DNA of 32,483 nucleotides from an uncultured Bacilli bacterium (lineage in GTDB: Bacteria > Bacillota_I > Bacilli_A > RF39 > UBA660). The stretch is from the NCBI GenBank assembly GCA_947627435.1, contig CANQWB010000001.1, positions 71,952 to 104,434 of the forward strand. Reading direction: 5' to 3'. Position numbers and translations under genes: made by a program. Numbering within the stretch: the first letter of the stretch is position 1; each line of letters begins with the position of its first letter. This document shows, piece after piece, positions 13,328 to 32,483 of the stretch. A model generated the notes under the pieces. The model had not been told where the DNA came from. It was given only the letters and a program-made list of their open reading frames with translations, and did no database searches.

Positions 13328-13334
13328 GTGACAT

Positions 13335-14105
13335 ATGTTTAAAGACTTATATCAATATAGGGAATTGCTAAGAAGCAATATCAAAAAAGAGATTAGAGGA
13401 AAATATAAGGGCTCATTCTTAGGAGTTTTATGGTCATTTGTGAACCCTTTATTGCAAGTACTTGTATATGCGATTGTGTTTCCTTTCATTTTAAGAGATA
13501 CAATGGACAATTACATTGTATACTTGATTATTGGAATTTTACCATGGACATGGTTTACTACTTCCATTAGTCAAGGCACATTTACTATTTTAGGAAATGC
13601 TGGAATTATTAAAAAAGTATATTTTCCAAGAGAAATATTACCAATATCGGTTGTGACAAGTGGATTAATAAATTTTTTAATTTCATGTTTAATTATTTTT
13701 GTATTTTTAATTTTTAGTGGCATTGGATTTAGTATTAATTTATTATATTTACCATTGGTAATTCTAGTACAATACATAATTTCATTAGGACTTGTATTTA
13801 TTACAAGTGCGATTAATGTATACGTAAGAGATGCAGAATATATTATTAATTTTATTGTTAATATGTTATTTTATGCAACGCCTATTTTATATTCTCCAGA
13901 TGTATTTGCTAACAGTAAGTTAAGTTTCATATTTGATTTTAATCCAATGGCAATTATTATTACGGGGTATCGTGATATTTTATATGCAAAGGTATCACCA
14001 AATGTAAGTTCTTTGATGATTGTACTAATTGGAAGCCTTATTTTATTGTTAGTTGGTGTAAAAATATTTAAAAAATTGCAAAAAGGATTTGCAGAAGAAG
14101 TATGA
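13335..14105 (+). CDS. Polysaccharide ABC exporter, permease (Wzm/RgpC/TagG type, 256 aa)
   Basis: It begins seven bases after the ATPase stop, with a GTAGGTG ribosome site. The N-terminal amphipathic stretch RELLRSNIKKEIRGKYKGS followed by LGVLWSFVNPLLQVLVYAIVF is the hallmark of ABC-2 polysaccharide permeases. Six TM helices are visible. It forms the channel with the preceding ATPase and carries teichoic-acid- or rhamnan-like polymer to the outer face. The length is normal for the family. Confidence 0.93.
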   Translation: MFKDLYQYRELLRSNIKKEIRGKYKGSFLGVLWSFVNPLLQVLVYAIVFPFILRDTMDNYIVYLIIGILPWTWFTTSISQGTFTILGNAGIIKKVYFPREILPISVVTSGLINFLISCLIIFVFLIFSGIGFSINLLYLPLVILVQYIISLGLVFITSAINVYVRDAEYIINFIVNMLFYATPILYSPDVFANSKLSFIFDFNPMAIIITGYRDILYAKVSPNVSSLMIVLIGSLILLLVGVKIFKKLQKGFAEEV

Positions 14106-14956: not shown

Positions 14957-14964
14957 GAGGATTT

Positions 14965-16902
14965 ATGATGAAGAAAATATCAGTTATTATATGTTGTTAT
15001 AATACTGAAAAATATGTCGAAAAATGCATTAATTCTATTTTAAATCAAACTTATCAAAATATAGAAATTATAATAGTAGAGGATCATTCTACTGATAATA
15101 CAAAAGAAAAATTGTTGACATATAAAAGTAATCCAAAAGTAAGAATTCTTATGAATGAACAAAATAAAGGTTTATCATACTCACGCAACCGTGCGTTAGA
15201 AATAGCGACAGGGGATTACATAGGGTACATTGATTCTGATGATTATGTAGAACCAACGTATTATGAGAGGTTAATGCAGTCTATTCAAGATAATCATTCT
15301 GAGGTAGCTATTTGTGGTATAAAAGTTGTAGATGAAGATGGAAATCTTGACCATATTAATCCATGTTATCAAAATAATGCCGGTATACTTTCATTTATTG
15401 ATAACGGTCTTGCAGCATCTGCTTGTAATAAATTATTTCAAAAAGAAGCAATTTCAAAGTATCCATTTTCAGTTGGGAAAGTAAATGAAGATATTGCTGT
15501 AGTGATTCCAACTCTTATGAATGCATGTAAAGTAAGCTATGCAAATGATACGTATTATTATTATGTGCAGAGAAATCATTCCATCCAAAATTCTAGTTTT
15601 TCAGAAAAACGATTTGATATTTTTTATGGCGTAGATTTAACATTAGAAAGAATCAAAAATCACTGTGAATATATGCAAGCAAAAGAAGCATTGGTATTCA
15701 ATCAATTGATAGTTTTATTGTTATATGTGATACCAAAAGAACCTAATTTTTGGAAAAGAAATCAGATTCTAAAAAAATATAATAAATTGATACAAAAATA
15801 TCATATTGAAAATAATTCATTATTAAATAAATATCTAGAAAGCCAAACGGGAAAATCTGGTATGTATGTACGTTTTCTCATAAAATGTACGATTCAAAAA
15901 TGGAATATGTTGGAAAATATTATGATTGCATTTTATCGCTTTTTAAAAAGTCACAAAAAATCGGTGATTCCTAATGTAATTAGGATAGAAGATTTGGTAA
16001 AATGTGCAAAAAAGCAACAACAATTACCTGAAAAAATATCTATTACTGCTGTTATTCCAAATTATAATTATGAAAAATTCTTATATCAGAGATTTTATAG
16101 TGTGTTGAATCAAAATGTGAAGATTAAAGAAATTGTGATATTGGATGATTGTTCTACAGATTACAGTCGTAATGTAATAGATGAAATTGTCACGCAGATT
16201 TCTCCTTACATTACAATCAAAAAAATATATAATAAGCAAAATAGTGGTTCAGCCTTTCGTCAATGGCAGAAAGGGCTAAAAGAAGCAAGTGGTGACTATG
16301 TTTGGATTGCTGAAGCAGATGATTATTGCCAGTCTAATATGATTGAAAATCTAACAAAGCCATTAGAAAAAAATTCAGATGTTATAATTTCTTATTGTGA
16401 TACTGCTTTTATCAATACAAATGGTTATATTACTTATAAATCAATTATTCCTGAAATTGATATTATGAAAACAGGACATTGGAATTGTAACTATGTCATA
16501 GATGGTATCAAGGAGTATGAACATTATTCATTTTTGAATTGTACAATTGCTAATGTCTCTTCTTGTATATTTCGCAAAGGCGATTATGATACTATACTAG
16601 AACAAGCAGGTACATATAAACAAGCAGGTGATTGGTTCTTTTATGTATATTTAATGCATATGGGAAAAGTAGCATTTTGTAATAAAACGTTGAATTATTA
16701 TAGGGAACATGGAAATAATGTTAGTAGTATTACTAAAAAAGAAGCACATATGCAAGAAATTAAAAGTATCCATCAATATTTTAAAGCAAATTATGGATTA
16801 AATGAAGACCAAGAAAAACATATTCACGAACGATACGAGTTTTTGAAGATTGTATGGGATTTAGAAAAGAAGGTAGATTATGATAAAAAAATTGATACCT
16901 AA
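14965..16902 (+). CDS. Dual-domain GT2 glycosyltransferase (645 aa)
   Basis: An AGGAGG site precedes two in-frame ATGs (14965 and 14968); either may be used. The first GT-A domain (residues 1 to about 220) has ISVIICCYNTEKYVEKC, VEDHSTDNT and YIDSDDY as its DxD site. A helical linker follows (about 220-345). The second GT-A domain (about 350-600) has AVIPNYNYEKF, LDDCSTD, NSGSAFRQWQKG and WIAEADDY. The second domain is clearly homologous to the N-terminal domain of the next gene. Two active sites in one chain suggest sequential transfer or polymer synthesis. Both DxD sites look intact. Donors are unknown. Confidence 0.85.
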   Translation: MMKKISVIICCYNTEKYVEKCINSILNQTYQNIEIIIVEDHSTDNTKEKLLTYKSNPKVRILMNEQNKGLSYSRNRALEIATGDYIGYIDSDDYVEPTYYERLMQSIQDNHSEVAICGIKVVDEDGNLDHINPCYQNNAGILSFIDNGLAASACNKLFQKEAISKYPFSVGKVNEDIAVVIPTLMNACKVSYANDTYYYYVQRNHSIQNSSFSEKRFDIFYGVDLTLERIKNHCEYMQAKEALVFNQLIVLLLYVIPKEPNFWKRNQILKKYNKLIQKYHIENNSLLNKYLESQTGKSGMYVRFLIKCTIQKWNMLENIMIAFYRFLKSHKKSVIPNVIRIEDLVKCAKKQQQLPEKISITAVIPNYNYEKFLYQRFYSVLNQNVKIKEIVILDDCSTDYSRNVIDEIVTQISPYITIKKIYNKQNSGSAFRQWQKGLKEASGDYVWIAEADDYCQSNMIENLTKPLEKNSDVIISYCDTAFINTNGYITYKSIIPEIDIMKTGHWNCNYVIDGIKEYEHYSFLNCTIANVSSCIFRKGDYDTILEQAGTYKQAGDWFFYVYLMHMGKVAFCNKTLNYYREHGNNVSSITKKEAHMQEIKSIHQYFKANYGLNEDQEKHIHERYEFLKIVWDLEKKVDYDKKIDT

Positions 16903-19057
16903 AAGGGTGTTAAATACATATCGTCAAGTGAAGAAAAATCATGGAGTCAATATATATAAACAACATGGAAAACTTGTGAAAAACCATGTGCAAAAAGTAT
17001 CAGTAGTGATTCCAAATTACAATTATGAAAAGTTAATTGTTGAGAGAATTGATTCTATTATAAGACAAACTTATCCTATATATGAAATTATTGTATTAGA
17101 TGATTGCTCAAAAGATAATAGTGTTGCTGTAATAAAGAACAAGTTAAAAACGATTCAACATATAAAAACAAAGTTAATTGTTAATGATAAAAATAGTGGT
17201 TCTGTGTTTAAACAATGGCAAAAAGGGTTTGAAGAAGCAAAAGGTGATTATGTTTGGATTGCTGAGGCAGATGATAGTGCTAATTGTCATTTTTTAGAAA
17301 CTGCCATGAGGGGTTTCGAAGATAAAGATGTTATATTATCATATACAGAAAGTATGAGAATAGATTTAAATAATAAAATTATCCAAAATTCTTGTCGCGA
17401 TTGGATGGAAGGTGTAAGTAGTACTAGATGGAACAAAAGTTATATTGTAGATGGCAAAGATGAAATTATAAATTGTCTAAGTATTTGCAATACGATACCT
17501 AATGTTTCCGCAGTTGTATGGAAAAAACAAGACTATCACGATATTTTTAAAGAAGCTCAAAAATTTAAAATTAGTGGGGACTGGTATATTTACTATCATG
17601 CACTTCAAAATGGGAAAATTGCATACCATAAAAAAAGTCTAAATTATTTTAGAAAGCATAATCAATCTGCTAGTACAGTTGTAAAAGTAGAAATGGAATT
17701 AAAAGAATTATTATGGATCCAAAAAGACATTCGTGATCATTATGTGTTACCAAGTAATATTATCCATAAACAATCTTATCGATATGGAACAATTATTCAA
17801 AAAGTGGATGAAAAGGTAAAAAAAGAAGTAGAACCATTCATTGCAAAGAAAATTGCATGGATTATTCCAGCTCCAATTAAAGGATCAGGCGGCATTCGTA
17901 CTATGATTCAAAATGCAAATGCCCTTGTGAAAAAAGGATATGAATGTGATATATATATTGAAGAAGATTATATAAATGATTCAATGAGTATGAAACGTCG
18001 TATTGAGAACTACTATGGGGAATGTTTGGCTGATGTATATGTTGGAATTGAATTTCGAAAACAATACGATTTAGCTTTTTGTACTTATTCTATATTAACG
18101 GCTGATTATTTAAACTTTATGGATGTACCTAGAAAAGCATACTTTATTCAAGACTTTGAACCATGGTTTGAACCAATGGGAGGTCTATATTTGCAAATGG
18201 AAAAATCATATAAATATCATTTCTATGGTATTAGTATTGGAAAATGGCTTACATATAAGTTATCAAATGAATTCGATATGTCTATGAATTACTTTGACTT
18301 TTGTGCAGATTTGAACATTTACCATAAATTAGATGGTGTAGAAAAAGAAGATGCAGTTTGTTTTATTTATCAACCTGAAAAGGCCAGAAGATGCAGTAAC
18401 TTAGGAATAGATGCACTCAGATTGGTAAAAAAGTTGCGCCCTGAAATTAAAATCTACTTATATGGATCTGATCAAGCTTGGAAAGATAATCTAGAAGTGG
18501 AAAATTTAAATATTATTTCGTTAGCCGAATGTAACAAATTGTATAACAAGTGTAAGGTAGGATTATGTATTAGTGCATCTAATCCTTCTAGAATTCCATT
18601 TGAAATGATGGCCGCTGGATTACCAGTGGTAGATTTATATCGTGAAAATAATTTATATGATGTACCAGATGGTGGCGTATTACTGGCAGATTCTACACCA
18701 GAAGCAATTGCAACCGCAATTATTAAAATATACGATGATGAAAAATTGCAAAAGAAAATGTCTACAATTGGGGAATCATATATGAAAAATCATCCAATTG
18801 AAAAAGGCTTTGAACAGTTTTATCAATTTGTAGAAGATGTATTAAATGATAAGATAAAACCAAATAACAAGATAAAATCACTCTATAAAACAGAAAAAAT
18901 AACTCCTTCTGATGAAGTGTTAAATGTTTCTAATATAGTGCGAGCTATTCCAGTTGCTATTTCACATCATTCTAAAATGATTCGACAAATGGTAAGAATA
19001 AAAAAGAAAATTGAACGTGAAGTAAAAGAATTGGTAAGAAAGGTATTTGGTCTTTGA
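16880..19057 (+). CDS. GT2 domain fused to WsaF-like GT4 glycosyltransferase (725 aa)
   Basis: It overlaps the previous gene by 23 bp and has an AAGAAGG ribosome site. The N-terminal GT-A domain (about residues 35-290) carries VIPNYNYEKL, LDDCSKDNS, NSGSVFKQWQKG and WIAEADDS. The C-terminal part (about 320-660) resembles the rhamnosyltransferase WsaF: KIAWIIPAPIKGSGGIRT, YFIQDFEPWFEPMG, and RIPFEMMAAGLPVVDLY as the GT4 donor-site region. A basic tail closes the protein (RIKKKIEREVKELVRK). This fusion is found in rhamnan and S-layer-glycan loci, so the polymer may contain rhamnose; no dTDP-rhamnose genes are in the window, so this remains an inference. Confidence 0.83.
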   Translation: MIKKLIPKRVLNTYRQVKKNHGVNIYKQHGKLVKNHVQKVSVVIPNYNYEKLIVERIDSIIRQTYPIYEIIVLDDCSKDNSVAVIKNKLKTIQHIKTKLIVNDKNSGSVFKQWQKGFEEAKGDYVWIAEADDSANCHFLETAMRGFEDKDVILSYTESMRIDLNNKIIQNSCRDWMEGVSSTRWNKSYIVDGKDEIINCLSICNTIPNVSAVVWKKQDYHDIFKEAQKFKISGDWYIYYHALQNGKIAYHKKSLNYFRKHNQSASTVVKVEMELKELLWIQKDIRDHYVLPSNIIHKQSYRYGTIIQKVDEKVKKEVEPFIAKKIAWIIPAPIKGSGGIRTMIQNANALVKKGYECDIYIEEDYINDSMSMKRRIENYYGECLADVYVGIEFRKQYDLAFCTYSILTADYLNFMDVPRKAYFIQDFEPWFEPMGGLYLQMEKSYKYHFYGISIGKWLTYKLSNEFDMSMNYFDFCADLNIYHKLDGVEKEDAVCFIYQPEKARRCSNLGIDALRLVKKLRPEIKIYLYGSDQAWKDNLEVENLNIISLAECNKLYNKCKVGLCISASNPSRIPFEMMAAGLPVVDLYRENNLYDVPDGGVLLADSTPEAIATAIIKIYDDEKLQKKMSTIGESYMKNHPIEKGFEQFYQFVEDVLNDKIKPNNKIKSLYKTEKITPSDEVLNVSNIVRAIPVAISHHSKMIRQMVRIKKKIEREVKELVRKVFGL

Positions 19058-20877
19058 TGAAGAAAATGTTATATAAATTTGCACAATTAGGATACCGTTT
19101 GATTCCACTTCGTGCGGATCGAAAAAAGAAAATTGTAGCAATAATTACACAAAAAAGGAAAATGACTAAAAAACAATTGATACATAAAATTCAAAAGTAC
19201 CAAGTTATTTCTTTTGATATTTTTGATACTTTGATTACACGTACACTTTATCAACCAGATGATTTATTTCAGATCATTGGTGAAATAGAAAATATCCCTG
19301 ATTTTTTAAATATGCGTAAGCAGGCCGAGATAGAAGCTAATCGCAAATGGAATCATGATTGCAATTTGGATGAGATATATGAGGAATTAAATCACTTATA
19401 CCATTTAGATTCTAAAAAATTAAAAGAATTAGAAATTTCTTTAGAATTAGAATTTTGTATTCCTCGAAAGGATATGCTTGATGTATTTTATAAAATAAAA
19501 AAGAATCATAAAATTATTTTGGTAAGTGATATGTACTTGAATCGAGAAATTATTGAAAAAATGCTAGCAAAATGTGGTTATAGTGGTTATGACAAACTGT
19601 ATCTATCCAATGAACTCAATAAAAGAAAAGATAACAAAACAATATGGGATGATGTATTACAAGAAAATAAGAATATTGTACATATTGGTGATAATCTGTT
19701 GTCTGATTATGAATATCCAAAAGAGTTTCATATAGACACAATCAAAATTGAAAGCGGCATTTCAATTTTACAAAAATCTAAAGCTAATATTTTTCTGAAA
19801 GATTGCAATTCATCTGGTTCCAATTCTATATTTTTAGGATTAATTATTAATAAGATTTTATGTAATTCTCCATTTTCAGATGGGAATATCGTTACACTAG
19901 AACAATTTGGCTATACATTAATTGCACCTTTTATGTTTGAATTTATGAAATTCATAGATGAACAGGAAGGCCCTCTATTGTTTTTAGCACGTGAAGGGTA
20001 TCAATTACAAAAACTATATGTAAAATATTGTGACATATTTAAAAAAAAGCAAAAACAGAATTTTTACTTTCTAAGTTCCCGAAAAGCTTCAACTATATAT
20101 GAAACAAAAGAAGACATTGAAAAGAGTTGTAGTCAGGTATTTAATGGCAGTATTGCCAATTTTTTAGAACAAATATTTGATATAAAAGTAGAAAATAATA
20201 TGCTGATTGAATTACCAAAAGATAAAGATACTGTCATTCCTATTGTACTTTCTTATGCCGAGGACATCATTGCACAATCTTTAGAAAATAAAAAAAATTA
20301 TATTTCATATATGAAAAAAATGATTCCAAATTACCAAAAAGTAGATCTTACTTTGGTTGACTTAGGTTACTCCGGAACTATTCAATACAATTTAAGTCGT
20401 ATATTAAACCAACATATCAAAGGTTGTTATTTAACTAATTCTGATTCTGTTAAAAGATTTTTTTCTGATAGTATTTTAGAGTTTTGCTTCGATATTCATG
20501 AAGACCCATTATATCAAAAAATATATCATTATTCTTTAATATTAGAATTTTTCTTATCTGCACCGTTTGGACAATTATTAAAATTTGCAGAACAAGAAGG
20601 AGAAATTATTCCAATTTACAATCAAGAAAAGATGGATTCTATCAAAGAACATACATTGGATACTATTTTTAATGGTGTGATATCTTATATGGAAGATATT
20701 CATCATATTTGTGAAGTATTTCATATAGATATAGATAAAAGGCTAATTGCACAAATCTATATTGGTTTTATTGAAACATCTAGTATCAGTTATGAAGTAA
20801 AAGATCAGTTTAGATTTCAAGATGCCTACTGTGGAACAAAGGAATATAATGTATTTAAAAAGATAAGTCGTTATTAA
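19057..20877 (+). CDS. HAD-superfamily protein of COG5610 type (606 aa)
   Basis: The start is taken as the ATG that overlaps the previous TGA (TGATG); the track uses the TTG one codon before. The first half is a HAD phosphatase-like domain: motif I SFDIFDTLITR (about residue 50), motif II VSDMYL, and motif IV HIGDNLLSDYE. The second half (about residues 270-606) is an unassigned domain with FLAREGYQLQKLY and VDLGYSGTIQYNLSR, which is usual for this family. Members occur inside capsule and O-antigen clusters next to glycosyltransferases. The substrate is not established; a phospho-sugar or lipid-phosphate role is possible. Confidence 0.75.
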   Translation: MKKMLYKFAQLGYRLIPLRADRKKKIVAIITQKRKMTKKQLIHKIQKYQVISFDIFDTLITRTLYQPDDLFQIIGEIENIPDFLNMRKQAEIEANRKWNHDCNLDEIYEELNHLYHLDSKKLKELEISLELEFCIPRKDMLDVFYKIKKNHKIILVSDMYLNREIIEKMLAKCGYSGYDKLYLSNELNKRKDNKTIWDDVLQENKNIVHIGDNLLSDYEYPKEFHIDTIKIESGISILQKSKANIFLKDCNSSGSNSIFLGLIINKILCNSPFSDGNIVTLEQFGYTLIAPFMFEFMKFIDEQEGPLLFLAREGYQLQKLYVKYCDIFKKKQKQNFYFLSSRKASTIYETKEDIEKSCSQVFNGSIANFLEQIFDIKVENNMLIELPKDKDTVIPIVLSYAEDIIAQSLENKKNYISYMKKMIPNYQKVDLTLVDLGYSGTIQYNLSRILNQHIKGCYLTNSDSVKRFFSDSILEFCFDIHEDPLYQKIYHYSLILEFFLSAPFGQLLKFAEQEGEIIPIYNQEKMDSIKEHTLDTIFNGVISYMEDIHHICEVFHIDIDKRLIAQIYIGFIETSSISYEVKDQFRFQDAYCGTKEYNVFKKISRY

Positions 20878-20890
20878 GGAGAAATATAAT

Positions 20891-21271
20891 ATGAAACAAT
20901 TATTAAAACAAATTATAAGATTTGGTATTGTAGGGGTAATTGCTTTTCTTATTGATTATTCATTACTATATGTATTTACTGAATTTATACATATTCATTA
21001 TCTTATTTCATCTGTTATGTCGTTTACAATATCACTTATTTTTAATTACATTGCGAGTATCTATTGGGTATTTGATGTAAAAAAGAAACAAACATATAAA
21101 GAAGTAATTATATTTGTAGTACTAAGTGTGATTGGTCTTGGAATTAATCAACTTGTGATGTATGTGATGACTGATTTATGGAAAATATACTATATGTTAA
21201 GTAAATTAGTTGCAACCGCAATTGTCATGGTATGGAATTTTATCACAAGAAAAATATTTATAGAAAAATAA
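20891..21271 (+). CDS. GtrA-like membrane protein (126 aa)
   Basis: It has an AAGGAGAAA ribosome site. Four TM helices and the typical opening RFGIVGVIAFLIDYSLLY identify the GtrA/DPMS family, thought to flip polyprenyl-phosphate-linked sugars. In this locus it probably serves the GtrB-like enzyme encoded at 23759, although nine other reading steps separate them. It ends this operon segment; a terminator begins at its stop codon. Confidence 0.85.
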   Translation: MKQLLKQIIRFGIVGVIAFLIDYSLLYVFTEFIHIHYLISSVMSFTISLIFNYIASIYWVFDVKKKQTYKEVIIFVVLSVIGLGINQLVMYVMTDLWKIYYMLSKLVATAIVMVWNFITRKIFIEK

Positions 21272-21298
21272 TTATAGACAAATGTCTATAATTTTTTG
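21271..21298 (+). terminator. Terminator after the gtrA-like gene
   Basis: A nearly loop-less perfect stem ATTATAGACA/TGTCTATAAT is followed by TTTTTT. It separates the first part of the polysaccharide locus from the second. Confidence 0.8.
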
Positions 21299-21311
21299 TT
21301 ATATATGAAAC

Positions 21312-21340
21312 TTTACTCCCACATTATTTTGTCGTATAAT
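21312..21340 (+). promoter_or_regulatory. Promoter for the second polysaccharide operon (TTTACT-17-TATAAT)
   Basis: The -35 TTTACT (21312-21317) and -10 TATAAT (21335-21340) have 17-bp spacing, directly after the terminator. The start codon at 21356 follows, so the ORF-track start at 21296, upstream of this promoter, is not used. Confidence 0.7.
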
Positions 21341-21355
21341 AAAAGTGGTGATTCT

Positions 21356-22489
21356 ATGAAAAAGGTAACCATTTTCGCACTTCATTTAGGGTATGGAGGC
21401 ATTGAAAGATGTATATCGATGCTTGCAAATGCATTATGTGATGAATATCAAGTAGAGATTATCTCTACTTATGAATTAGGTGAACATCCTGCCTTTTTCT
21501 TAAATAAACAAATTCAAGTTCAATATTTATTAAAAGAAACAAGTCCTAATCGTCAGGAATTTTTAAGAGCTCTTAAGAGTTTTCATTTCATTCAAGCATG
21601 GAAAGAAGGCATGAGAGCAATTCACATTCTAAAATGGAAAAAAGAGAAAATGATTGGAGCCATGCAAGAATGCAATAGTGATATTATGATTGCAACAAGG
21701 GATATTCATAATAAATGGTTAGGAAAATACGGTAAAAAAAGTGCATATAAAATTGGTTGGGAACATAATCATCCACATGGCAATCAAAGGTATATGAAAA
21801 AAGTAATTGAGTCAGTCAAAAATCTAGATGCATTTGTGCTCGTTTCTCCTGAGTTAAAAAAACTATATGAGTCAAAAGTAACATGCCCTTGTATATATAT
21901 TCCAAATGCGATTGAAGATTTTCAAAATGAATTGTCAAAACAGACAGAAAAAAAGATTATTTCTATTGGAAGATTATCTAAAGAAAAAGGATATTCTGAT
22001 TTAATAGATGTGTTTGATATGGTACATAAATTATTTCCAGATTGGCATTTGGATATTATTGGAGATGGAATAGAACGAGATAGTCTCGTACACAAAATTA
22101 ATCACTATCAATTACAAAAGGATATTACATTACATGGTTATCAAGGAAAAGAATATATCAATAATTTATTAGAACATTCTTCCATTTATGTCATGTCATC
22201 GTTTACAGAGTCATTTGGCATTGTATTATTAGAAGCATTTTCGTTTGGATTACCTTGTGTCGCTTTTGATAGTGCCGAGGGTGCGAATTTGCTAATTAGT
22301 AATAATTGGGATGGCTATCTAATTAAAAATCGAGATAAAGAACAGATGGCTAAACGCATTTGTGAATTGATTCAAAATCAAAATAGAAGAATTGTTATGG
22401 GCGATAATGGTATGAAAAAAGCAACTACTTATCAAATGAGTGAAGTTAAAAAACAGTGGCTTGCTTTATTAGAAAAGGAAACAATATGA
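21356..22489 (+). CDS. GT4 glycosyltransferase (377 aa)
   Basis: The start is set at MKKVTIFALHLGYGGIER, with GTGGTG upstream and a promoter at 21312-21340. GT-B features are the N-terminal GGIER loop, ISIGRLSKEKGYSDLI at the start of the C-terminal domain, and the EX7E motif in ESFGIVLLE followed by GLPCVAFDS. It is a retaining, cytoplasmic enzyme of the common capsule/EPS type. It overlaps the next gene by four bases. The sugar donor cannot be told from sequence. Confidence 0.87.
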   Translation: MKKVTIFALHLGYGGIERCISMLANALCDEYQVEIISTYELGEHPAFFLNKQIQVQYLLKETSPNRQEFLRALKSFHFIQAWKEGMRAIHILKWKKEKMIGAMQECNSDIMIATRDIHNKWLGKYGKKSAYKIGWEHNHPHGNQRYMKKVIESVKNLDAFVLVSPELKKLYESKVTCPCIYIPNAIEDFQNELSKQTEKKIISIGRLSKEKGYSDLIDVFDMVHKLFPDWHLDIIGDGIERDSLVHKINHYQLQKDITLHGYQGKEYINNLLEHSSIYVMSSFTESFGIVLLEAFSFGLPCVAFDSAEGANLLISNNWDGYLIKNRDKEQMAKRICELIQNQNRRIVMGDNGMKKATTYQMSEVKKQWLALLEKETI

Positions 22490-22956
22490 AAAAAGTATTA
22501 TGGATTTCGAGTCAAGGGGGTCATTTAAATGAGTTGTTACAACTAGATTCCTTATTTTCAAAATATGACTCTTATTTTATGACAGAAAAAACGAAAACAA
22601 CTATATTTTTAAAAGACAAATATAAAAATACGTCTTACTTACTTTATGGGACAAGACATCATATGTGGTGCTATCCATTTATTTTATTGGCAAATTGTTT
22701 GATTAGTTTGCATCAATATTTGAAAATACGTCCTGATTATGTAGTCACGACAGGTACCCATACTGCTGGGCCTATGTGCATGATTGCTAAAATTATGGGC
22801 AGTAAAGTGATTTATATTGAAACGTTTGCTAATATAGAAAATAAAACAGCAACAGGTAGACTGCTTGCCCCATTCGCAGATTTATTGATTGTTCAGTGGG
22901 AAAGTATGTTAGATGTATACCCAAAAGCAAAGTTTGGGGGGTGTATTTTTAAATGA
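22486..22956 (+). CDS. Alg14/PssD-like glycosyltransferase accessory subunit (156 aa)
   Basis: The start ATG overlaps the previous stop (ATGA); the track start lies ten codons too early. The N-terminus VLWISSQGGHLNELLQL and the later YVVTTGTHTAGPMCMIAK and YIETFANIENKT are characteristic of the Alg14/PssD/CpsF group. These proteins hold the catalytic Alg13-like partner at the membrane. The partner is the next gene, overlapping by four bases. Length is normal for the family. Confidence 0.87.
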   Translation: MKKVLWISSQGGHLNELLQLDSLFSKYDSYFMTEKTKTTIFLKDKYKNTSYLLYGTRHHMWCYPFILLANCLISLHQYLKIRPDYVVTTGTHTAGPMCMIAKIMGSKVIYIETFANIENKTATGRLLAPFADLLIVQWESMLDVYPKAKFGGCIFK

Positions 22957-23762
22957 TATTTGTGATATTAGGCACACAAGATAAAAAGTTTCCAAGATTA
23001 CTTGAAGAAGTAGAAAAGTTGATTTTGGATGGTACCATTCAAGAAAAGGTTATTGTTCAATCAGGTAATACTCCATATCATTCTAAGGTAATGGAAATTT
23101 ATTCTAGTTTAAGTCCTAAGAAGTTTTTAAGTTTTATGGAACAAAGTGATTATATTATTACACATGGTGGTGTTGGAACCATTCTAGATGCACTCAAAAT
23201 GAATAAAAAAATAATTGCTGTTCCAAGAAGAAAAGAATATAAGGAACATGAGAATAATCATCAAATACAAATTGTTCAAAAATTCAATCAAGAACATTAT
23301 ATTATTGGATGTGATGAAGTAGAAGATTTAAAAAAGAAAATTGCAAAAGTAAGTACTTTTAAGCCCAAAACATATGCTTTCAACAATGATCAAATGGTAT
23401 CAATGATAGCAACTTATATGGATGAAACTTCTACAAAAAGAAAAGAATTAATGATTTTTCTTTTCTATGCATTTTTAACATTATTCATACAACTTGGGAT
23501 TTATTTTTTAGGTAAGGTAGGACAATCAGGTTTCAATCATATGTGGCTTGGATGGCTCATTTCATATATTGTACTGATTTGCCTACATTACCGTAAAAAA
23601 AGTTATGTATTTGAAATTGTGTGGGGAGTTTTTCTTGCAATTGCACAATGGTTTTGGTTTACTTATTTTGAACAAATTAGTTCGATGATAATGATAACAA
23701 TAGTTGCTGATATGATAACTTATATAGGTCATACCATGTTTTATACAGGGAGGTTAAAATGA
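22953..23762 (+). CDS. Alg13/PssE-like glycosyltransferase with C-terminal membrane domain (269 aa)
   Basis: The first 165 residues are an Alg13/PssE-type GT28 C-terminal domain: MIFVILGTQDKKFPRL, then DYIITHGGVGTILDAL (UDP-sugar binding) and KEYKEHENNHQ. With the previous gene it makes a two-subunit transferase, in related systems a beta-1,4-galactosyl- or GlcNAc-transferase. After residue 165 there are about four TM helices (RKELMIFLFYAFLTLFI to the end) that standard PssE proteins (about 160 aa) do not have. This may anchor the enzyme or act like a GtrA-type partner. It overlaps the next gene by four bases. Confidence 0.82.
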   Translation: MIFVILGTQDKKFPRLLEEVEKLILDGTIQEKVIVQSGNTPYHSKVMEIYSSLSPKKFLSFMEQSDYIITHGGVGTILDALKMNKKIIAVPRRKEYKEHENNHQIQIVQKFNQEHYIIGCDEVEDLKKKIAKVSTFKPKTYAFNNDQMVSMIATYMDETSTKRKELMIFLFYAFLTLFIQLGIYFLGKVGQSGFNHMWLGWLISYIVLICLHYRKKSYVFEIVWGVFLAIAQWFWFTYFEQISSMIMITIVADMITYIGHTMFYTGRLK

Positions 23763-24697
23763 AAAAAGAATTATTGACAGTAATTGTACCATGTTATAAT
23801 GAACAAGAATCTCTCTTTTATTTTTATGAAGAGATTGTTAAAATCGCTGAACAAATGAAATCTTTGAATTTTGAATTTTTATTTGTAAATGATGGTTCCA
23901 AAGATCAAACGCTATCTATCATAAAAGAGCTTAGTCATAAAGATAAGAGAGTTCGTTATGTATCTTTTTCTAGAAACTTTGGAAAAGAAGCTGCAATGTA
24001 TGCAGGATTAGAACATTCTAAGGGAGATTATGTAACGTTGATGGATGCAGATTTACAGGACCCTCCTGCTTTATTAATTGAAATGTATTCTGCAATAAAA
24101 AATGATGGTTATGATGTAGTAGGAACTAGACGTGTTACTCGTAAAGGGGAACCTCCTATTCGTAGTTTCTTCGCAAGATGTTTTTATAAACTCATCAATC
24201 GTATGTCAAAAGTGGAAATGGTAGATGGAGCGAGAGATTATCGTTTAATGACACGTCAAGTAGTAGACGCAATTTTATCATTAAAAGAATACAATCGTTA
24301 TTCAAAAGGATTATTTAGTTTTGTAGGTTTTGATACCAAATGGATTGAATATGAAAATGTAAAAAGAGTTGCAGGAGAGACAAAATGGTCTTTTTGGAAA
24401 TTATTTATCTATGCGTTAAATGGTATTACTGCATTTTCAACAGTACCTTTGATACTTTCAGGAGTAATTGGAATCTTATTTTGTTTGATTTCATTTATTG
24501 CTATTATTGTAATTATCATTAAAACTCTTACTGTTGGAGATCCAACTGTTGGATGGCCATCTTTGGTATGTATCATTTTTTTTGTGAGTGGTGTACAGTT
24601 ATTTTGTATTGGAATTATGGGACAATATTTGTCTAAAACATATTTAGAAACAAAACATAGACCTATTTATGTTGTTAAAGAAACGGATAAAAATTAA
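23759..24697 (+). CDS. GtrB-like polyprenyl-phosphate glycosyltransferase (312 aa)
   Basis: A GT2 enzyme of the DPM1/GtrB class: TVIVPCYNEQESL, FLFVNDGSKDQT, SFSRNFGKEAAMYAGL, LMDADLQDPP (DxD) and DYRLMTR. Two C-terminal TM helices (about residues 230-255 and 265-295) match GtrB. It transfers a sugar from a nucleotide to undecaprenyl phosphate; the product is flipped by a GtrA protein and used to decorate the surface glycan. It is the last gene of the locus and is followed by a terminator. Confidence 0.9.
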   Translation: MKKELLTVIVPCYNEQESLFYFYEEIVKIAEQMKSLNFEFLFVNDGSKDQTLSIIKELSHKDKRVRYVSFSRNFGKEAAMYAGLEHSKGDYVTLMDADLQDPPALLIEMYSAIKNDGYDVVGTRRVTRKGEPPIRSFFARCFYKLINRMSKVEMVDGARDYRLMTRQVVDAILSLKEYNRYSKGLFSFVGFDTKWIEYENVKRVAGETKWSFWKLFIYALNGITAFSTVPLILSGVIGILFCLISFIAIIVIIIKTLTVGDPTVGWPSLVCIIFFVSGVQLFCIGIMGQYLSKTYLETKHRPIYVVKETDKN

Positions 24698-24869: not shown

Positions 24870-24970
24870 AGAGGGTAACCCCCTCTAAAAGTTGTCTAAA
24901 AAAATGATAACATCCAAAGTATGCTATTTGTAAACGGGGGGGGGGTAATCCCCTTTTTTTATTGTCTAAA
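24870..24970 (+). promoter_or_regulatory. Structured leader with a ten-G run before the pilin-like gene
   Basis: The leader holds a first hairpin (AGAGGG/CCCTCT, 24870-24886), a run of ten Gs (24936-24945), and a second hairpin GGGG-TAAT-CCCC with seven Ts (24942-24960). The parts 24873-24900 and 24943-24970 resemble each other and both end in TTGTCTAAA; the second carries the AAAGGAG ribosome site at its end. The C/T tract could pair either with the G-run or with the ribosome site. No known riboswitch class is recognised. Confidence 0.6.
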
Positions 24971-24982
24971 GGAGTGAAAGAA

Positions 24983-26452
24983 ATGAAGAAAATGAAGAAA
25001 AAAGGATTTACATTAATTGAATTATTGGCGGTAATCGTAATATTAGCAATTATCGCACTAATTACAACGCCAATGATAATGAATGTAATAGAGAAAACAA
25101 GAAAAGGAGCAGCCATTCAATCAGTCAATGGATTACTAGAAGCAGGAGAACAATATCAAGTAGAATCTATGATGGATGGAAAACCTTCAAATGTAATTGA
25201 TTTAACGAGTGATGCCTTAAGTACAAAAGGAAGTAAACCAGAAAGTGGCTTATTAGTAATAGATTCCTCTGGAGATATGAGTATTATAGCAAAATATGGA
25301 AAATACTGTATAGAAAAGAAATATGAAGATGAAGAACCAACAATAGTAGAAAAAAATCTATGTGTAATGGAAGAAGATGAAGTAGATGTTAAAATCTATG
25401 GAGTAAGAAGAAAAATCAATAGTTCATCAACAGAGTGGGAGAGAATTAATAATAGTGTTGGATTAGAAGCGAATGCCCAAATAGGAACAGAAAATACAGA
25501 AGTAACAAATGATTTTGATACTATTTATCCATGGAGTGGTATCTATACTTACAGTTGGAATAAAGAAACAAAAGAAGAAACCAAATGGGATGAAGAAGGA
25601 TTTTCATATACCAATGATTATATATTTACAAAAATACCAGAATTTTACTATAGAAGATATCAAGAAAATGGATATGAATATGTTTTAATAAGTAATAAAA
25701 ACATAGATGGATATACAAAAAGTGATGAATTTTCAATAGGAAGATATACGATGTCTGGGTCTGAAGCAGGAGTTTATAGTAAAAGTGGGGTAAAACCATT
25801 ACAAGAGAAAATAATTACAGATTTTAGGAACTATGCAAGAGCATTAGGAAATGAATTTAGTCAATTAGATTATCATTACTTTATAATCCAATTATTATAT
25901 TTAGTGGAATATGCAGACTATAATTCACAAGAAAAATTAGGAAAGGGATATACTGCTAGTAATACTGCCCCTGTTGAAAGCGGTGGATGTGATGATTTAG
26001 GAATGAAATCAGGAACACTCAATAATGATGGACAACATTCCATGATATACCGAGGAATAGAAGATATATATGGAAATATATGGCAATTTGTAGATGGAAT
26101 CAATATAAAAGATAATCAAGCATATGTATGTTATAATCCAAGTGAATATGATTCAGATAAGTTTGAAGGATGTTATCAACAATTAGGATATGTAAATGCA
26201 ACTAATAATGGTTATATAACTAAATTAGGGTATGATTCTAAAAATCCATTAATAGCTTTTCCAATAGAAATAGGTGGAAGTAATAGTACATATATCCCAG
26301 ATAATTATTGGCAAGCATCTGGAGATAAAATAGCTCTTGTCGGCGACAATTGGTTTCACGATTCTCAGGCTGGCTTGTGGTGTTGGAATATGAATGACAT
26401 TTCGTCTAATGTGTGGACTGGCCACGGTGCTCGACTTCTTAAAACCAGTTAA
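24983..26452 (+). CDS. Type IV prepilin-like protein with C-lectin/FGE-like variable C-terminus (489 aa), candidate DGR target
   Basis: The ATG at 24983 has AAAGGAG at good spacing; the track's TTG start is discarded. The N-terminus is a class III prepilin signal: a basic leader MKKMKKKG, cleavage before FTLIELL, then a hydrophobic helix (AVIVILAIIALITTP) and the amphipathic continuation. The middle region is unassigned. From about residue 340 on it looks like the C-type-lectin/formylglycine-generating-enzyme fold (MIYRGIEDIYGNIWQFVDG, NYWQASGD, LWCWNMN, GHGARLL). This fold is the usual display scaffold of DGR-diversified proteins, and the last ~117 bp have the composition expected of a variable region. 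The protein would be displayed at the cell surface on or as a pilus-like structure and bind variable ligands. The prepilin call is strong; the DGR call is inferred without a visible reverse transcriptase. Confidence 0.85.
   Translation: MKKMKKKGFTLIELLAVIVILAIIALITTPMIMNVIEKTRKGAAIQSVNGLLEAGEQYQVESMMDGKPSNVIDLTSDALSTKGSKPESGLLVIDSSGDMSIIAKYGKYCIEKKYEDEEPTIVEKNLCVMEEDEVDVKIYGVRRKINSSSTEWERINNSVGLEANAQIGTENTEVTNDFDTIYPWSGIYTYSWNKETKEETKWDEEGFSYTNDYIFTKIPEFYYRRYQENGYEYVLISNKNIDGYTKSDEFSIGRYTMSGSEAGVYSKSGVKPLQEKIITDFRNYARALGNEFSQLDYHYFIIQLLYLVEYADYNSQEKLGKGYTASNTAPVESGGCDDLGMKSGTLNNDGQHSMIYRGIEDIYGNIWQFVDGINIKDNQAYVCYNPSEYDSDKFEGCYQQLGYVNATNNGYITKLGYDSKNPLIAFPIEIGGSNSTYIPDNYWQASGDKIALVGDNWFHDSQAGLWCWNMNDISSNVWTGHGARLLKTS
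26333..26449 (+). other. Candidate DGR variable region (VR)
   Basis: By hand count this stretch is about 48% GC, against about 28% for 26161-26280 of the same gene, and only about 20% A. It has a cluster of C-ending codons (GTC, GGC, GAC, CAC, GGC, GAC, GGC, CAC, ACC) that are rare elsewhere in the gene. AAY codons mutated at adenines would give this NNC/NNT pattern. It encodes the end of the lectin-like fold, where DGRs place their variable residues. The left border is approximate. Confidence 0.7.
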
Positions 26453-26750: not shown

Positions 26751-27581
26751 ATGATAGAAACAAAAATCAATTTATTCAATGATGCGATGTTTAAAGCAAT
26801 TTTCAGAAATCCAAAAAATAGAAAGATAATATCCGAATTCTTATCAGAAGTAACAGGAGTTAAACAAGAATTATTAGAACAAGCCAATTATCAAGGAGGA
26901 GAAATCCCAAAAAAGAAACTAGAAGAAAAAGGAAAGATAGCAGATTTGATTATTAAGATAGAAGATAATCAACAAATTATCGTAGAGATGAATCAATATA
27001 GAAGCAATTATATATTTGAAAAGAATACAAGTTATGCTTTTTCCATATCATCAGAAAGTAGTAAAAAAGGAAGAAGAGAATATCCAAGAGTAATATTAGT
27101 GAATCTAGATAAATTCAATCCATTTCAAACAAAAGAAGGAATCATACGATTTCAATTAAGAGATGAAGAAGGACATGTAGAAACAGAAATATATGAATCG
27201 ATTCATATCATACTTGAAAATATAATAGACAAGCAGTATAATAATAACAAGATAAAAAAGTTTATAGAATTCATGGCGAGTGAAACGATAGAAGAGATGG
27301 AAGAGAAGTTTAAAGGAGATGAAGAATATATGGCGGCGATAAGGACGGTAGAAGAATTATCGACAGATCCAAACTTTGTAGGATATTATGATTTAGAGGA
27401 AGCGCATAAGCAAGAATTAGAAGATATGAGAGAAACTGGATATGATGATGGAATGGAAAAAGGTAAAATAGAAGTAGCAAGAGCCATGTATGAAGAAGGA
27501 TTACCACTTGAAATGATATCAAAGATTACAAAATTAACAATCGAAGAGATTCAAACAATACAAAATGGATCAGAAATGTAA
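26751..27581 (+). CDS. Rpn-family PD-(D/E)XK nuclease/putative transposase (276 aa)
   Basis: The ATG follows the AAAGGAG site. The N-terminus NLFNDAMFKAIFRNPKNRKIISEFLSEV is characteristic of the Rpn/PDDEXK_2 family. The nuclease core follows, with KIADLIIKIEDN and IIVEMNQYRSN (the D...ExN/Q form of the PD-(D/E)XK motif) at about residues 62-85. The C-terminus has the usual repeated acidic/helical tail (EMEEKF..., GYDDGMEKGKIEVARAMYEEGL), frequent in members from Bacillota. Rpn proteins are DNA endonucleases that promote RecA-independent recombination, and many are annotated as transposases. It appears full length. No terminal inverted repeats were found around it. Confidence 0.88.
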   Translation: MIETKINLFNDAMFKAIFRNPKNRKIISEFLSEVTGVKQELLEQANYQGGEIPKKKLEEKGKIADLIIKIEDNQQIIVEMNQYRSNYIFEKNTSYAFSISSESSKKGRREYPRVILVNLDKFNPFQTKEGIIRFQLRDEEGHVETEIYESIHIILENIIDKQYNNNKIKKFIEFMASETIEEMEEKFKGDEEYMAAIRTVEELSTDPNFVGYYDLEEAHKQELEDMRETGYDDGMEKGKIEVARAMYEEGLPLEMISKITKLTIEEIQTIQNGSEM

Positions 27582-29071: not shown

Positions 29072-31168
29072 ATGATGAACCTTGATTTTTTAAATGAACA
29101 ACAAAAAGAAGCAGTTATGACAACGGAAGGGCCAGTTTTAGTCATTGCAGGTGCAGGAAGTGGAAAGACAAGAGTTTTAACAACACGTATTGCCTATTTA
29201 GTCGAAGAAAAACATGTAAATCCAAATCATATTTTAGCAATTACATTTACCAATAAAGCAGCCGGAGAAATGAAAGATCGCGTGTTATCCATGTTAGGTC
29301 CTGTTGCCTATCAAATACAAATATCGACATTCCATTCATTTGGCTTACAATTGATTAAAGAAAATTATGATATATTAGGATATCATTCTAATTTTACAAT
29401 TATGGATAGTGATGATACTGTTACTGTCATTAAAAAAATTATTAAAGAATTAGGATATGATCCCAAAGAATATAATCCAAAATCAATTCGTAGTAAGATT
29501 AGTGGTGCGAAAAATGAACTGATGAGTCCCAAAGAGTATGAAAAATATGCAGCTACTACATTTGAAGAGGTAGTTGTGAAAGTATATGAACATTATGAAC
29601 AAAAATTAAAATCGAACAATTCTTTTGATTTTGATGATTTACTAATTAAACCAATTGAATTATTCCACAGTCATCCAGAAATTCTAAAAAAATATCAGGA
29701 ACGTTTCCAATATGTTTTAATTGATGAGTATCAGGATACCAATGAAGCACAATATATATTATCAAAGATGATGAGTGCAAAATATAAAAATATATGTGTG
29801 GTTGGAGACGATTCACAAGCTATCTATGCTTGGAGAGGTGCGAACTATAAAAATATTTTAAATTTTGAGCATGATTTTAAAAACACAAAAGTCATTTTAT
29901 TAGAAGAAAATTATCGTTCTACTAAAAATATTTTAAGTGCTGCCAATGATATTATTAAAAACAACAAACAAAGAAAAGAAAAAAAATTGTGGACGGCTAA
30001 CGAAGAAGGACTAAAAATCAAATACCATAAAGCCGATAATGAGATGGATGAAGCACATTATGTGGTAAAAGAAATTCAAACATTGTTAGATCAAGGTGAA
30101 GAATTAAAAGAAATCGCAGTATTATATCGAACGAATGCCCAATCCCGTAATATGGAAGAAGCATTGCTACAGGAAAATATTCCTTATAAAGTAGTCGGTA
30201 GTTTTTATTTCTATAATCGAAAAGAGATTAAAGATTTGATTTGTTATTTAAAGTTAATTTATAATCCAAATGATGATGTTTCTTTTATGCGAGTAGTGAA
30301 TGTTCCTAAAAGAGGAATTGGTGATAAAACGATTGAAGCATTAAGTCTAAAAGCAATGAATGAACATACCAGTTTATTTGACGCAATTACATCTGGAAAA
30401 GAATTAGATTTTAAAACTATGATTGCATCCATTCAAAAAACAGATTGTTCTTTAACGGAATTAGTAGATTTAGTATTAGAAAAAACAGGTATGAAGCATG
30501 AGTTGGAACAAGAAAAAACACTAGAAGCCGATATTCGTTTAGAAAATTTGGAAGAATTTAAAACAATTACGAAGACATTTGAAGAAAAAAATGGTATTAT
30601 ATCTTTAGAAGACTTTTTGAATGAAATTAGTCTTGTGTCTGATATTGAGGAACATAAAAACAATAATGATGTTGTAACTCTTATGACAGTACATTCAGCA
30701 AAGGGTCTTGAATTCAATCATGTATTCTTAATTGGGATGGAAGAGGGACTGTTTCCACATAATAATTCTTTAATGGATTTAGAACAAATTGAAGAAGAAA
30801 GGCGTCTATGTTATGTAGCCGTAACCAGAGCCAAAAAAACTCTTCATTTAGTCAATGCGAGAAGAAGAACAATATTTGGTGATGTAAATTATAATCTACC
30901 AAGCCGTTTCATAGAGGAAATCAGTGATGAATATCTAGAAGTGGATTCTGATATTGTGATGGGAACAAAACCACAATTTAAAAAAGAGAATATGATAGAC
31001 TCTTCTATTGAATATCGTGTAGGCGAAAAAATAGAACATGATAGTTTTGGTATTGGGATGATTGTTGGAGTGGAAGCAAGTATTCTGACAGTAGCCTTTC
31101 CATACCCATATGGAATTAAAAAATTGTTAAAAGGTCATAAGACTTTTAGAAAGGTAACAGGTGATTAG
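29072..31168 (+). CDS. pcrA: ATP-dependent DNA helicase PcrA/UvrD type (698 aa)
   Basis: SF1A helicase motifs are in order: Q-motif LNEQQKEAV, motif I AGAGSGKT, Ia ITFTNKAAGEMK, II LIDEYQDTN, III GDDSQAIYAWRGA, IV LEENYRST, V MTVHSAKGLEF and VI YVAVTRAKK. The C-terminus has the RNA-polymerase-binding Tudor-like region of PcrA (GEKIEHDSFGIGMIVGV). It unwinds DNA in repair, removes RecA and acts at stalled transcription. At 698 aa it is slightly shorter than typical PcrA (about 720-740). Either the ATG at 29072 or the one at 29075 may be used; the ribosome site is weak. Confidence 0.95.
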   Translation: MMNLDFLNEQQKEAVMTTEGPVLVIAGAGSGKTRVLTTRIAYLVEEKHVNPNHILAITFTNKAAGEMKDRVLSMLGPVAYQIQISTFHSFGLQLIKENYDILGYHSNFTIMDSDDTVTVIKKIIKELGYDPKEYNPKSIRSKISGAKNELMSPKEYEKYAATTFEEVVVKVYEHYEQKLKSNNSFDFDDLLIKPIELFHSHPEILKKYQERFQYVLIDEYQDTNEAQYILSKMMSAKYKNICVVGDDSQAIYAWRGANYKNILNFEHDFKNTKVILLEENYRSTKNILSAANDIIKNNKQRKEKKLWTANEEGLKIKYHKADNEMDEAHYVVKEIQTLLDQGEELKEIAVLYRTNAQSRNMEEALLQENIPYKVVGSFYFYNRKEIKDLICYLKLIYNPNDDVSFMRVVNVPKRGIGDKTIEALSLKAMNEHTSLFDAITSGKELDFKTMIASIQKTDCSLTELVDLVLEKTGMKHELEQEKTLEADIRLENLEEFKTITKTFEEKNGIISLEDFLNEISLVSDIEEHKNNNDVVTLMTVHSAKGLEFNHVFLIGMEEGLFPHNNSLMDLEQIEEERRLCYVAVTRAKKTLHLVNARRRTIFGDVNYNLPSRFIEEISDEYLEVDSDIVMGTKPQFKKENMIDSSIEYRVGEKIEHDSFGIGMIVGVEASILTVAFPYPYGIKKLLKGHKTFRKVTGD

Positions 31169-31169: not shown

Positions 31170-31325
31170 ATGGTATTAAGTATTATTGATAGTATCAACA
31201 AAGTAGCAAAGGATTTTCAAGGATGGATTATTGAACATGGGAATAATCCAGTATTATGGGTAGGATTATTTTTCCTAGGTATTTTGATTTTCTATATTAC
31301 CTACAATGCATTACATAAAGATTAA
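31170..31325 (+). CDS. Small one-TM protein (51 aa) downstream of pcrA
   Basis: It is too short for the track. The ATG is two bases after the pcrA stop, with AGGTGATT upstream, so it is probably co-transcribed and coupled. The product starts MVLSIIDSINKVAKDFQG, has one TM helix (about residues 28-46) and a short charged end (NALHKD). No family is recognised. Confidence 0.65.
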   Translation: MVLSIIDSINKVAKDFQGWIIEHGNNPVLWVGLFFLGILIFYITYNALHKD

Positions 31326-31384: not shown

Positions 31385-31409
31385 AAAAATATTTCTTGCA
31401 CTATAAATG

Positions 31410-31437
31410 AAATATGTTAGGATAAACAATTAACAGT
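31410..31437 (+). promoter_or_regulatory. Promoter of the repeat-protein gene (TTGCAC-16-TAGGAT)
   Basis: A -35-like TTGCAC is followed after 16 bp by TAGGAT, preceded by TG (extended form). The ribosome site GAGGTGG and the ATG at 31449 follow. Confidence 0.45.
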
Positions 31438-31448
31438 GAGGTGGAAAA

Positions 31449-32483
31449 ATGAAAGTAGAAACAATGAAAATGATGGCGAATGAAGTTCCAAATTTGGACA
31501 TGGCTAAAAAATTAATGGAAAGTTTAAATCATTTATCTGATAATGATATAAAATTATTATTACAGGAACTCAAGAATTGTGATTATAACGAAAATGCATA
31601 TAAAATTGTTATCAATTCAGAAGTATTAGAAAAAAGAACAACCAAAGAACAAATTCAATTAATGAAGGTCTTTAAAAATTGCGACTATAACAAATATGCA
31701 TATAAAATTGTTACCGATTCAGAAGTATTAGAGAAAAGAACAACCAAAGAACAAATTCAATTAATGAAGGTCTTTAAAAATTGCGATTATAACAAATATG
31801 CATATAAAATTGTTACCGATTCAGAAGTATTAGAGAAAAGAACAACCAAAGAACAAATTCAGTTAATGAAGGTCTTCAAAAATTGCGATTATAACAAATA
31901 TGCATATAGAATTGTTACCGATTCAAATGTGTTGAAAGTAAGAACAATCGAAGAACAAATTCAGCTAATAGAAACCCTCAAGAATTGTGACTGCAATAAA
32001 TATGCAAGTAATATAGCTACCAATTTCAATGTATTAGAAGCAAGAACAACTGCAGAGCAAATTAGGTTAATGGAAGCCCTAAAGAATTGTGATTATCATG
32101 AATATGCAAGTAATATAGCTACTAATTCAAATGTATTAGAAAAAAGAACAACTGAAGAGCAAATTCAGTTAATGAAAGCTTTCAAGAATTGTGACTATGA
32201 TTACTGTGCATATAAAATAGTTGTCAATTCAGATGTATTAGAAAAAAGAACAACTGAAGAGCAAATCAAGTTAATGGAAGAACTCAAGAATTGCGATTAT
32301 AATGAATATGCAAGTAATATAGCTACCGATCCTAATGTATTAAAAGAAAGAACAGCTGAAGAACAAATTAGGTTAATGGAAGCCCTCAACAATTGTGACT
32401 ATAATAAATATGCAAGTAATATAGCTACCGATCCTAATGTATTAAAAGAAAGAACAGCTGAAGAACAAATTAGGTTAATGGAA
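31449..32483 (+). CDS. Tandem 34-residue-repeat protein, helical solenoid-like (3' end beyond window)
   Basis: Not in the track because it runs off the right edge; I translated 345 open codons from the ATG at 31449, which has GAGGTGG upstream. After an N-terminal part of about 32 residues (MKVETMKMMANEVPNL...) come at least nine units and the start of a tenth of 34 residues (102 bp) with the pattern EQIxLMxxxKNCDYNxYAxxI followed by SxVLExRT. Units are helical (two helices each by pattern), fitting an alpha-solenoid scaffold. There is no signal peptide or TM in the visible part. Units two and three differ at one of 102 bases. The family is unknown to me; a protein-binding role would be only a guess. 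Confidence 0.8.
   Translation, partial: MKVETMKMMANEVPNLDMAKKLMESLNHLSDNDIKLLLQELKNCDYNENAYKIVINSEVLEKRTTKEQIQLMKVFKNCDYNKYAYKIVTDSEVLEKRTTKEQIQLMKVFKNCDYNKYAYKIVTDSEVLEKRTTKEQIQLMKVFKNCDYNKYAYRIVTDSNVLKVRTIEEQIQLIETLKNCDCNKYASNIATNFNVLEARTTAEQIRLMEALKNCDYHEYASNIATNSNVLEKRTTEEQIQLMKAFKNCDYDYCAYKIVVNSDVLEKRTTEEQIKLMEELKNCDYNEYASNIATDPNVLKERTAEEQIRLMEALNNCDYNKYASNIATDPNVLKERTAEEQIRLME
31647..32483 (+). repeat. 102-bp tandem repeat array inside the gene
   Basis: Unit borders are clear at 31647, 31749 and 31851 and continue every 102 bp. 31647-31748 and 31749-31850 differ at one base. A second homogenised group lies at the right end, where about 75 bp ending in TTAGGTTAATGGAA are repeated exactly. 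Confidence 0.85.

Follow-up and report, generated by a model that had tools for sequence, protein, structure and literature searches.

At its 3′ end, the DNA analysed here (32,483 nucleotides from an uncultured Bacilli bacterium, G000:C1:71952-104434, hereafter the window) encodes a protein built from near-identical 34-residue repeats, which raises the question of what kind of protein this is, how rapidly its units change, and what use the change could be. The observation is real, and the original prediction, made from the letters alone, described its essentials correctly. The open reading frame begins with ATG at 31449, runs on the forward strand to 32483 (345 codons) and is open at the 3′ end of the window; read in the protein phase, it comprises a 42-residue N-terminal cap, eight full 34-residue units and most of a ninth. 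The gene and its surroundings contain the following features.

29072..31168 (+): pcrA/uvrD-type helicase, syntenic anchor, 92.0% amino acid identity to the sister species G003
31170..31325 (+): small single-pass membrane protein (51 aa) that separates pcrA from the repeat gene, 94% identical in G003
31396..31423 (+): putative promoter TTGCAC, 16-nt spacer, TG.TAGGAT (extended -10), from conservation across copies
31438..31444 (+): ribosome-binding site GAGGTGG, conserved in copies from several loci
31449..31574 (+): N-terminal cap, 42 residues, conserved among paralogues (alignment)
31575..31676 (+): unit 1 (KIVINSEVL)
31677..31778 (+): unit 2 (KIVTDSEVL), protein sequence identical to unit 3
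31779..31880 (+): unit 3 (KIVTDSEVL), protein sequence identical to unit 2
31881..31982 (+): unit 4 (RIVTDSNVL)
31983..32084 (+): unit 5 (NIATNFNVL)
32085..32186 (+): unit 6 (NIATNSNVL)
32187..32288 (+): unit 7 (KIVVNSDVL)
32289..32390 (+): unit 8 (NIATDPNVL)
32391..32483 (+): unit 9 (NIATDPNVL), truncated by the contig end
32407..32483 (+): 77-nt exact copy of 32305-32381, assembly k-mer break

TRF finds one array here, at 31570-32480, with a period of 102, 8.9 copies and a score of 920, far above chance; together with the translation, this confirms the predicted array as eight full and one partial 102-bp unit. Neighbouring units had been said to differ at a single base, and the smallest difference between 102-nt segments compared at lag 102 is indeed 1 base (start 31632), while the longest exact internal repeats measure 77, 74 and 53 nt. 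The two homogenised groups that had been noted, of the KIVTDSEVL and NIATDPNVL types, are present as units 1-3 (KIV.[DN]SEVL) and units 8-9 (NIATDPNVL).

The last base of contig C1, position 104434, is also the last base of the window and lies inside the array, at the end of the 77-nt copy. The reading frame continues on contig C17 of the same assembly (C17:1-810), which starts with the same sequence (C17:1-77 corresponding to window 32307-32383). Two further arrays of the family, C38/C71 in G003 and C12/C7 in G132, are also split between contigs, with overlaps of exactly 77 nt each. Exact overlaps of this kind mark the places where a de Bruijn assembly (k=77) has been stopped by an impassable repeat. 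Since the contig ends at a 77-nt repeat inside the array, the unit count taken from the assembly is a minimum only. Beyond the break, C17 adds five full units and one degenerate unit, after which come the C-terminal domain and stop codon, a terminator-like hairpin (recognised by eye) and then ligA. The minimal gene, joined across the break, encodes 589 amino acids, among them 14 or more full units, the degenerate one and, at the C-terminus, a conserved domain of some 45 residues whose sequence closes with TLVYKYK; the C-terminus that the original prediction had sought beyond the window is thereby found on C17.

The join of C1 and C17 is supported by G003 (CANQAF01), a sister species within the genus, where pcrA, the small membrane protein gene, the repeat gene and ligA follow one another in the same order, uninterrupted, on its contig C1. 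Between the two species, pcrA is 92.0% identical in amino acid sequence and ligA 89.7% identical, and the spacing is 280 nt in both. The 51-aa membrane protein is also encoded behind pcrA in other genera, in which the repeat gene is absent, and is no part of the repeat system. The genes around the repeat gene are housekeeping genes, and no functional hint comes from these neighbours.

The window also contains a prepilin-like gene (24962-26452, +; N_methyl motif, the C-terminal part sulfatase-modifying-factor-like by eye), and a similar gene precedes ligA in G001 (pilin-like) and lies between pcrA and ligA in G002, so that the repeat gene and these prepilin-like accessory genes share a genomic site. 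Further upstream, reading frames at 1-6314 (-) form a block that begins with a Walker-A protein (PPGHGKT), truncated where the window starts; the block also contains several small reading frames and a 594-aa protein whose C-terminal part has a hydrophobic segment. By eye the block resembles a filamentous-phage (Zot-type) prophage, and Pfam gave no match for the three proteins tested. A 1128-aa surface protein at 6854-10240 (+) has a Peptidase_M60 (enhancin-like) domain with HELAH and bacterial Ig-like domains, and its Ser/Glu-rich stalk contains a 33-bp tandem duplication (9878-9943). What appears by eye to be a long polysaccharide cluster occupies 10419-24697 (+), with several glycosyltransferases, a GtrA-like protein, an ABC-type polysaccharide exporter pair (12575-14105) and an Alg13/Alg14-like pair (22456-23762). 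A PD-(D/E)XK nuclease family transposase (PDDEXK_2) is located at 26751-27581 (+).

Searches of Pfam, NCBIfam and the PDB by sequence or profile with the window protein and its relatives returned no match surviving inspection. TPR profiles gave none at E<=1 for the window protein or at E<=0.1 for the relatives. The match to Superinfection exclusion GP17 (PF17420; 28/98 positions) was rejected, its 26.2 bits against a cutoff of 25 being a sum over repeats in which no single stretch passes. The GP17, DUF7083, LED and PHROG matches in general are sub-threshold sums over repeats, usually without a passing stretch, and were set aside as composition or repeat artefacts. With the PADLOC defence models, six members produced two marginal sub-domain matches only. 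A match to contig C26 in the DNA search lies inside a serine recombinase and is due to chance. No named family for this 34-residue repeat was found in the literature.

The AF2 model of the window protein, calculated with five relatives, has a mean pLDDT of 79.7 and a pTM of 0.73, most repeats reaching 82-93. According to DSSP, each unit of the model has three helices: B, about 8 residues long (positions 5-12), C, a short one of about 4 (15-18), and A, of about 13 (23-35). The full-length G003 protein is predicted with the same pattern at lower confidence, its C-terminal domain having a pLDDT of 34-62. The models thus support an alpha-solenoid of three-helix units that is predicted to form an elongated superhelix, in line with the solenoid that had been proposed from the repeats. 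In Foldseek searches of the PDB, the leading matches are generic alpha-solenoids or designed helical repeats with TM values of 0.1-0.34, including a weak similarity to TPR superhelices (1w3b, CTPR), and among viral models only generic alpha-solenoids are retrieved (TM <=0.34). No described family therefore matches by sequence or fold (Pfam, NCBIfam, PDB, Foldseek), and the assignment to an unknown family holds: within the known alpha-solenoid class, the proteins constitute a multigene family that is confined to one lineage and has not been described. The minimal protein is acidic (pI 5.2, net charge -15, with a range of -15 to -35 in the genus) and its sequence has no N-terminal hydrophobic stretch, while a signal peptide, an LPXTG/sorting motif and a transmembrane segment are absent from the complete members inspected by reading. 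These features suggest a cytoplasmic protein.

Relatives were detected in 12/386 genomes with a first profile and in 18/385 with a broader one, all from the same family or order and representing about 9-13 genera; class-wide matches in 395 genomes were marginal (60-80 residues, E 3e-5 to 5e-4) and were left uncounted. The repeat family is patchy and restricted to one Bacilli family. No copies occur in the same-genus genomes G001, G002 and G004, and none were found in the IMG/VR, phage and plasmid collections, because of which we reject a phage-borne or plasmid gene. The copies of G003 occupy the pcrA-ligA interval (8 units), the interval from efp to a fabG-like gene (an 11-unit copy and a second allele), a place near mutL, where the copy is split, and one behind aspS. 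G162 has about seven family genes in two tandem clusters (L059 on C31, L060 on C22), with at least one broken gene (a stop within the third gene of C31) and degenerate units such as LLKL.IEEHLKL. Other members have units of 34 or 37 residues, keep the N-terminal cap, and have a C-terminal domain like [ST]L..M..Y[IL]..L......D[IV]...TLVYKYK. The caps are 83-91% identical in nucleotide sequence among most G000 and G003 copies, and only 62-68% for C11. Unit 4 of this copy (G003 C11, L026:6778-8166) carries a 9-residue internal duplication (AYLIAVNVD/AYLIAVNLD) and has 43 residues instead of 34. Remote members in G261 (L067, C23), two of which adjoin each other, and in G081 (L065, C3) have Ala-rich 34-residue units, e.g., EDAKEIISLITNAKG..QAEYG..VAT...VLAR, and may represent a sister repeat family.

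A stretch with promoter and ribosome-binding site is common to the G000 and G003 copies despite their different surroundings. All five copies of G003 and most of those in G162 are preceded by a motif of TTGnnn, 16-17 nt and TGTTA[GT]AAT, in surroundings that again differ. The evidence for the putative promoter at 31396..31423 is this conservation, since a sigma-70 consensus scanner does not call it. Because these signals travel with the copies at different loci, the repeat gene can be regarded as a stand-alone cassette.

How fast the arrays change is best seen at the efp-fabG locus of G003, which is present on two contigs, C62 and C77, that may come from two strains binned together or from a recently duplicated locus. 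The flanks are 95.3% identical upstream and 95.0% identical over 2160 nt downstream. The arrays have 11 and 8 units, respectively, the C77 gene being frameshifted, and their units show a mean minimum difference of 17.8 of 102 nt (about 83% identity), with N-terminal caps 84% identical. Since units and caps diverge more than the flanks, the repeat gene changes faster than its surroundings. The copy-number variation that had been expected among strains is therefore seen at a paralogous locus of the sister species, with 95% identical flanks, and not for strains of the window's own species. In G000 the same interval measures 211 nt, compared to 1621 and 1299 nt in the G003 alleles, and the segment G000:C6:9490-9792 (L071) contains efp, the last 28 codons of the repeat protein and the fabG-like gene. 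This 28-codon remnant is a deletion scar; G003 has the full gene at this position.

The first unit on C17 is chimeric, its 5′ half being of the unit-9 type (like units 8-9) and its 3′ half of the unit-1/2 type with an 82-nt exact match to 31623-31704. Judged from its sequence, this is what recombination inside the array would produce, but a misjoin is possible at this point because the match exceeds the k-mer. Despite identities of 92% (pcrA) and 90% (ligA) between the species, the window units are nearer to the G003 efp copy, with a mean of 15.8 differences per 102, than to the syntenic copy, with 19.7, and positional orthology has thus been lost. Units have been exchanged within loci and probably also between them. 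These comparisons show that tandem duplication, deletion and recombination renew the arrays, in unit number as well as in unit sequence, faster than the flanking genes change, and that even closely related genomes differ by copies that have been gained, broken or deleted. The near-identical neighbours, the chimeric unit, the allelic length difference and the lost positional orthology agree with the original prediction of a fast-changing array shaped by more than one event. Taken together, the alleles, chimeric units, broken copy and deletion scar allow the steps of repeat-array turnover to be read directly. To our knowledge, such turnover is unusually fast for a bacterial cytoplasmic protein.

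The substitutions are unevenly distributed over the unit. Positions N1, C2, Y4, A8, I11, V17, L18, R21, T22, Q26, I27, L29, M30 and K34 are conserved, position 10 is the most variable (2.8 bits), and positions 3-16 vary more than 19-34 in 11/11 arrays examined. For 46 pooled units of G000 and G003, pN/pS is 0.51 over the whole unit, 0.45 (0.37-0.54) at the exposed helix-A positions 24, 28, 31 and 32, and 1.84 (bootstrap 1.3-3.7) at the exposed helix-B positions 6, 9, 10 and 13, exposure being taken from helix periodicity and not from coordinates. Only 1.0% of random four-position sets reach 1.84; the four positions were picked after inspecting the data, the units are related and not independent, and synonymous sites are few. 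In the G003_C1, G003_C11, G132_C8 and G162 arrays the ratio is <1. Because of these arrays, the post hoc choice of positions and the relatedness of the units, we take the helix-B value as a strong lead and not as proof of positive selection.

We give an even chance to a cytoplasmic alpha-solenoid that serves as a protein-binding scaffold of an undescribed, fast-diversifying family with an adjustable helix-B face. In such a protein, the conserved core would keep the fold, and the exposed helix-B residues (6, 9, 10, 13), repeated along the array, would form an adjustable recognition surface for proteins or peptides. Reshuffled units would create new specificities, as in fungal repeats of the HET-D/HET-E type, and the C-terminal domain may provide a constant function, e.g., oligomerization or partner docking. 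The likeliest use, which is a guess, would be the recognition of a fast-changing partner, such as phage or competitor proteins. That a binding surface could be tuned by copy number, as had been suggested, is plausible, given that the variable part of the unit is a single face of helix B.

It is also possible, although we consider it improbable, that the protein is a length-tuned but passive cytoplasmic scaffold or spacer, a rod or spring whose length matters little, the turnover reflecting tolerated slippage and recombination and the variable positions being simply exposed and unconstrained. A conserved core with free exposed positions is typical of any solenoid, the overall unit pN/pS of 0.5 fits, and copies are easily lost or frameshifted. 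However, the exposed positions of helix A lie just as close to the surface as those of helix B and yet have a pN/pS of 0.45 as opposed to 1.84; moreover, the segment asymmetry recurs in 11/11 arrays, and a passive spacer would hardly account for a family that has grown to about seven genes in G162.

It is very unlikely that the near-identity is partly an artefact of short-read metagenome assembly, with units collapsed or misjoined. The contig end does coincide exactly with a 77-nt repeat, three family arrays break at 77 nt, and a misjoin could have occurred where C1 and C17 share 82 nt, which is longer than the k-mer. Against this, the window repeats before 32407 are all <77 nt, similar arrays are unbroken in G003 (C1, C62, C11), G162, G185 and G232, and G003 keeps the pcrA-repeat-ligA order intact. 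The assembly caveat of the original prediction thus applies to the array end and the unit count, but not to the existence of the array. For such genes, unit counts from short-read metagenomes are unreliable, as three arrays breaking at one k-mer length illustrate.

Slighter still is the probability of a solenoid that reads nucleic acids like PUF, PPR, OPR or TAL-type proteins, with one unit per base and position 10 as the code residue. The unit length near 34-35, the tandem near-identical units and the strongly variable position 10 (2.8 bits) are compatible with it, but the proteins are strongly acidic (net charge -15 to -35 in the genus), the variability is spread over several positions of one helix face, and no Pfam, PDB or Foldseek match to these families was obtained. 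Least probable is a surface or secreted variable-length stalk, because, in spite of the near-identical tandem units and allelic length variation shared with the bacterial Periscope Proteins (PMC8201768), the latter are secreted, anchored surface rods of globular domains that project a host-binding domain from the cell surface, whereas the present family is a cytoplasmic-looking alpha-solenoid whose complete members, as read, lack a signal peptide, LPXTG and a transmembrane segment.

Returning to the scaffold with an adjustable helix-B face, the family would add an undescribed alpha-solenoid from a common but uncultured gut lineage. If the variable face is a recognition surface, the arrays would serve as a natural, compact library of specificities, and how concerted evolution builds recognition repertoires could be tested in bacteria.

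Among known repeats, the family resembles TPR proteins in its 34-residue unit (period 102 nt) and helical superhelix, but has three helices (8+4+13) per unit instead of two, other conserved residues (NCxYN..A..I, VL..RT..EQI.LM) and no Pfam match. With the HEAT/ARM, Sel1, PUF, PPR, TAL and LRV solenoids it shares the general alpha-solenoid architecture with units of 34-42 residues, but not a sequence-family match, and the global fold matches are poor (TM 0.1-0.34).

The closest parallel in behaviour is found in the fungal HET-D/HET-E and HIC-type NLRs, which are multigene families with near-identical units, exchange between loci, unit-number variation and few variable surface positions (PMC1805685, PMC4986451). 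The fungal NWD/HIC NLR repeats and the present family have in common similar tandem units and their exchange within and between loci (PMC1805685, PMC4986451, PMC12222747), as well as unit-number polymorphism (here 11 vs 8) and the problem of assembling such arrays from short or long reads. A non-synonymous excess at few exposed positions is a feature of the fungal HIC NLRs; in the present family, pN/pS is 1.84 in the pooled units and <1 in several arrays. The fungal repeats are WD40, ANK and TPR, whereas here the repeat fold is different and bacterial, and the fungal proteins combine a NACHT/NB-ARC ATPase with an effector domain, whereas only caps, repeats and the 45-residue C-terminal domain are present here, Pfam and NCBIfam revealing no NACHT/NB-ARC domain in the minimal protein or its relatives. 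Lacking this domain and having a different repeat, the proteins are not NLRs. That they are a bacterial counterpart of the fungal non-self-recognition repeats, i.e., a dispersed gut-Bacilli family of shuffled solenoid units under diversifying selection on one helix face, with no NLR ATPase and probably directed against phage or rival proteins, is possible but doubtful. The resemblance to the fungal NLRs is one of evolutionary behaviour.
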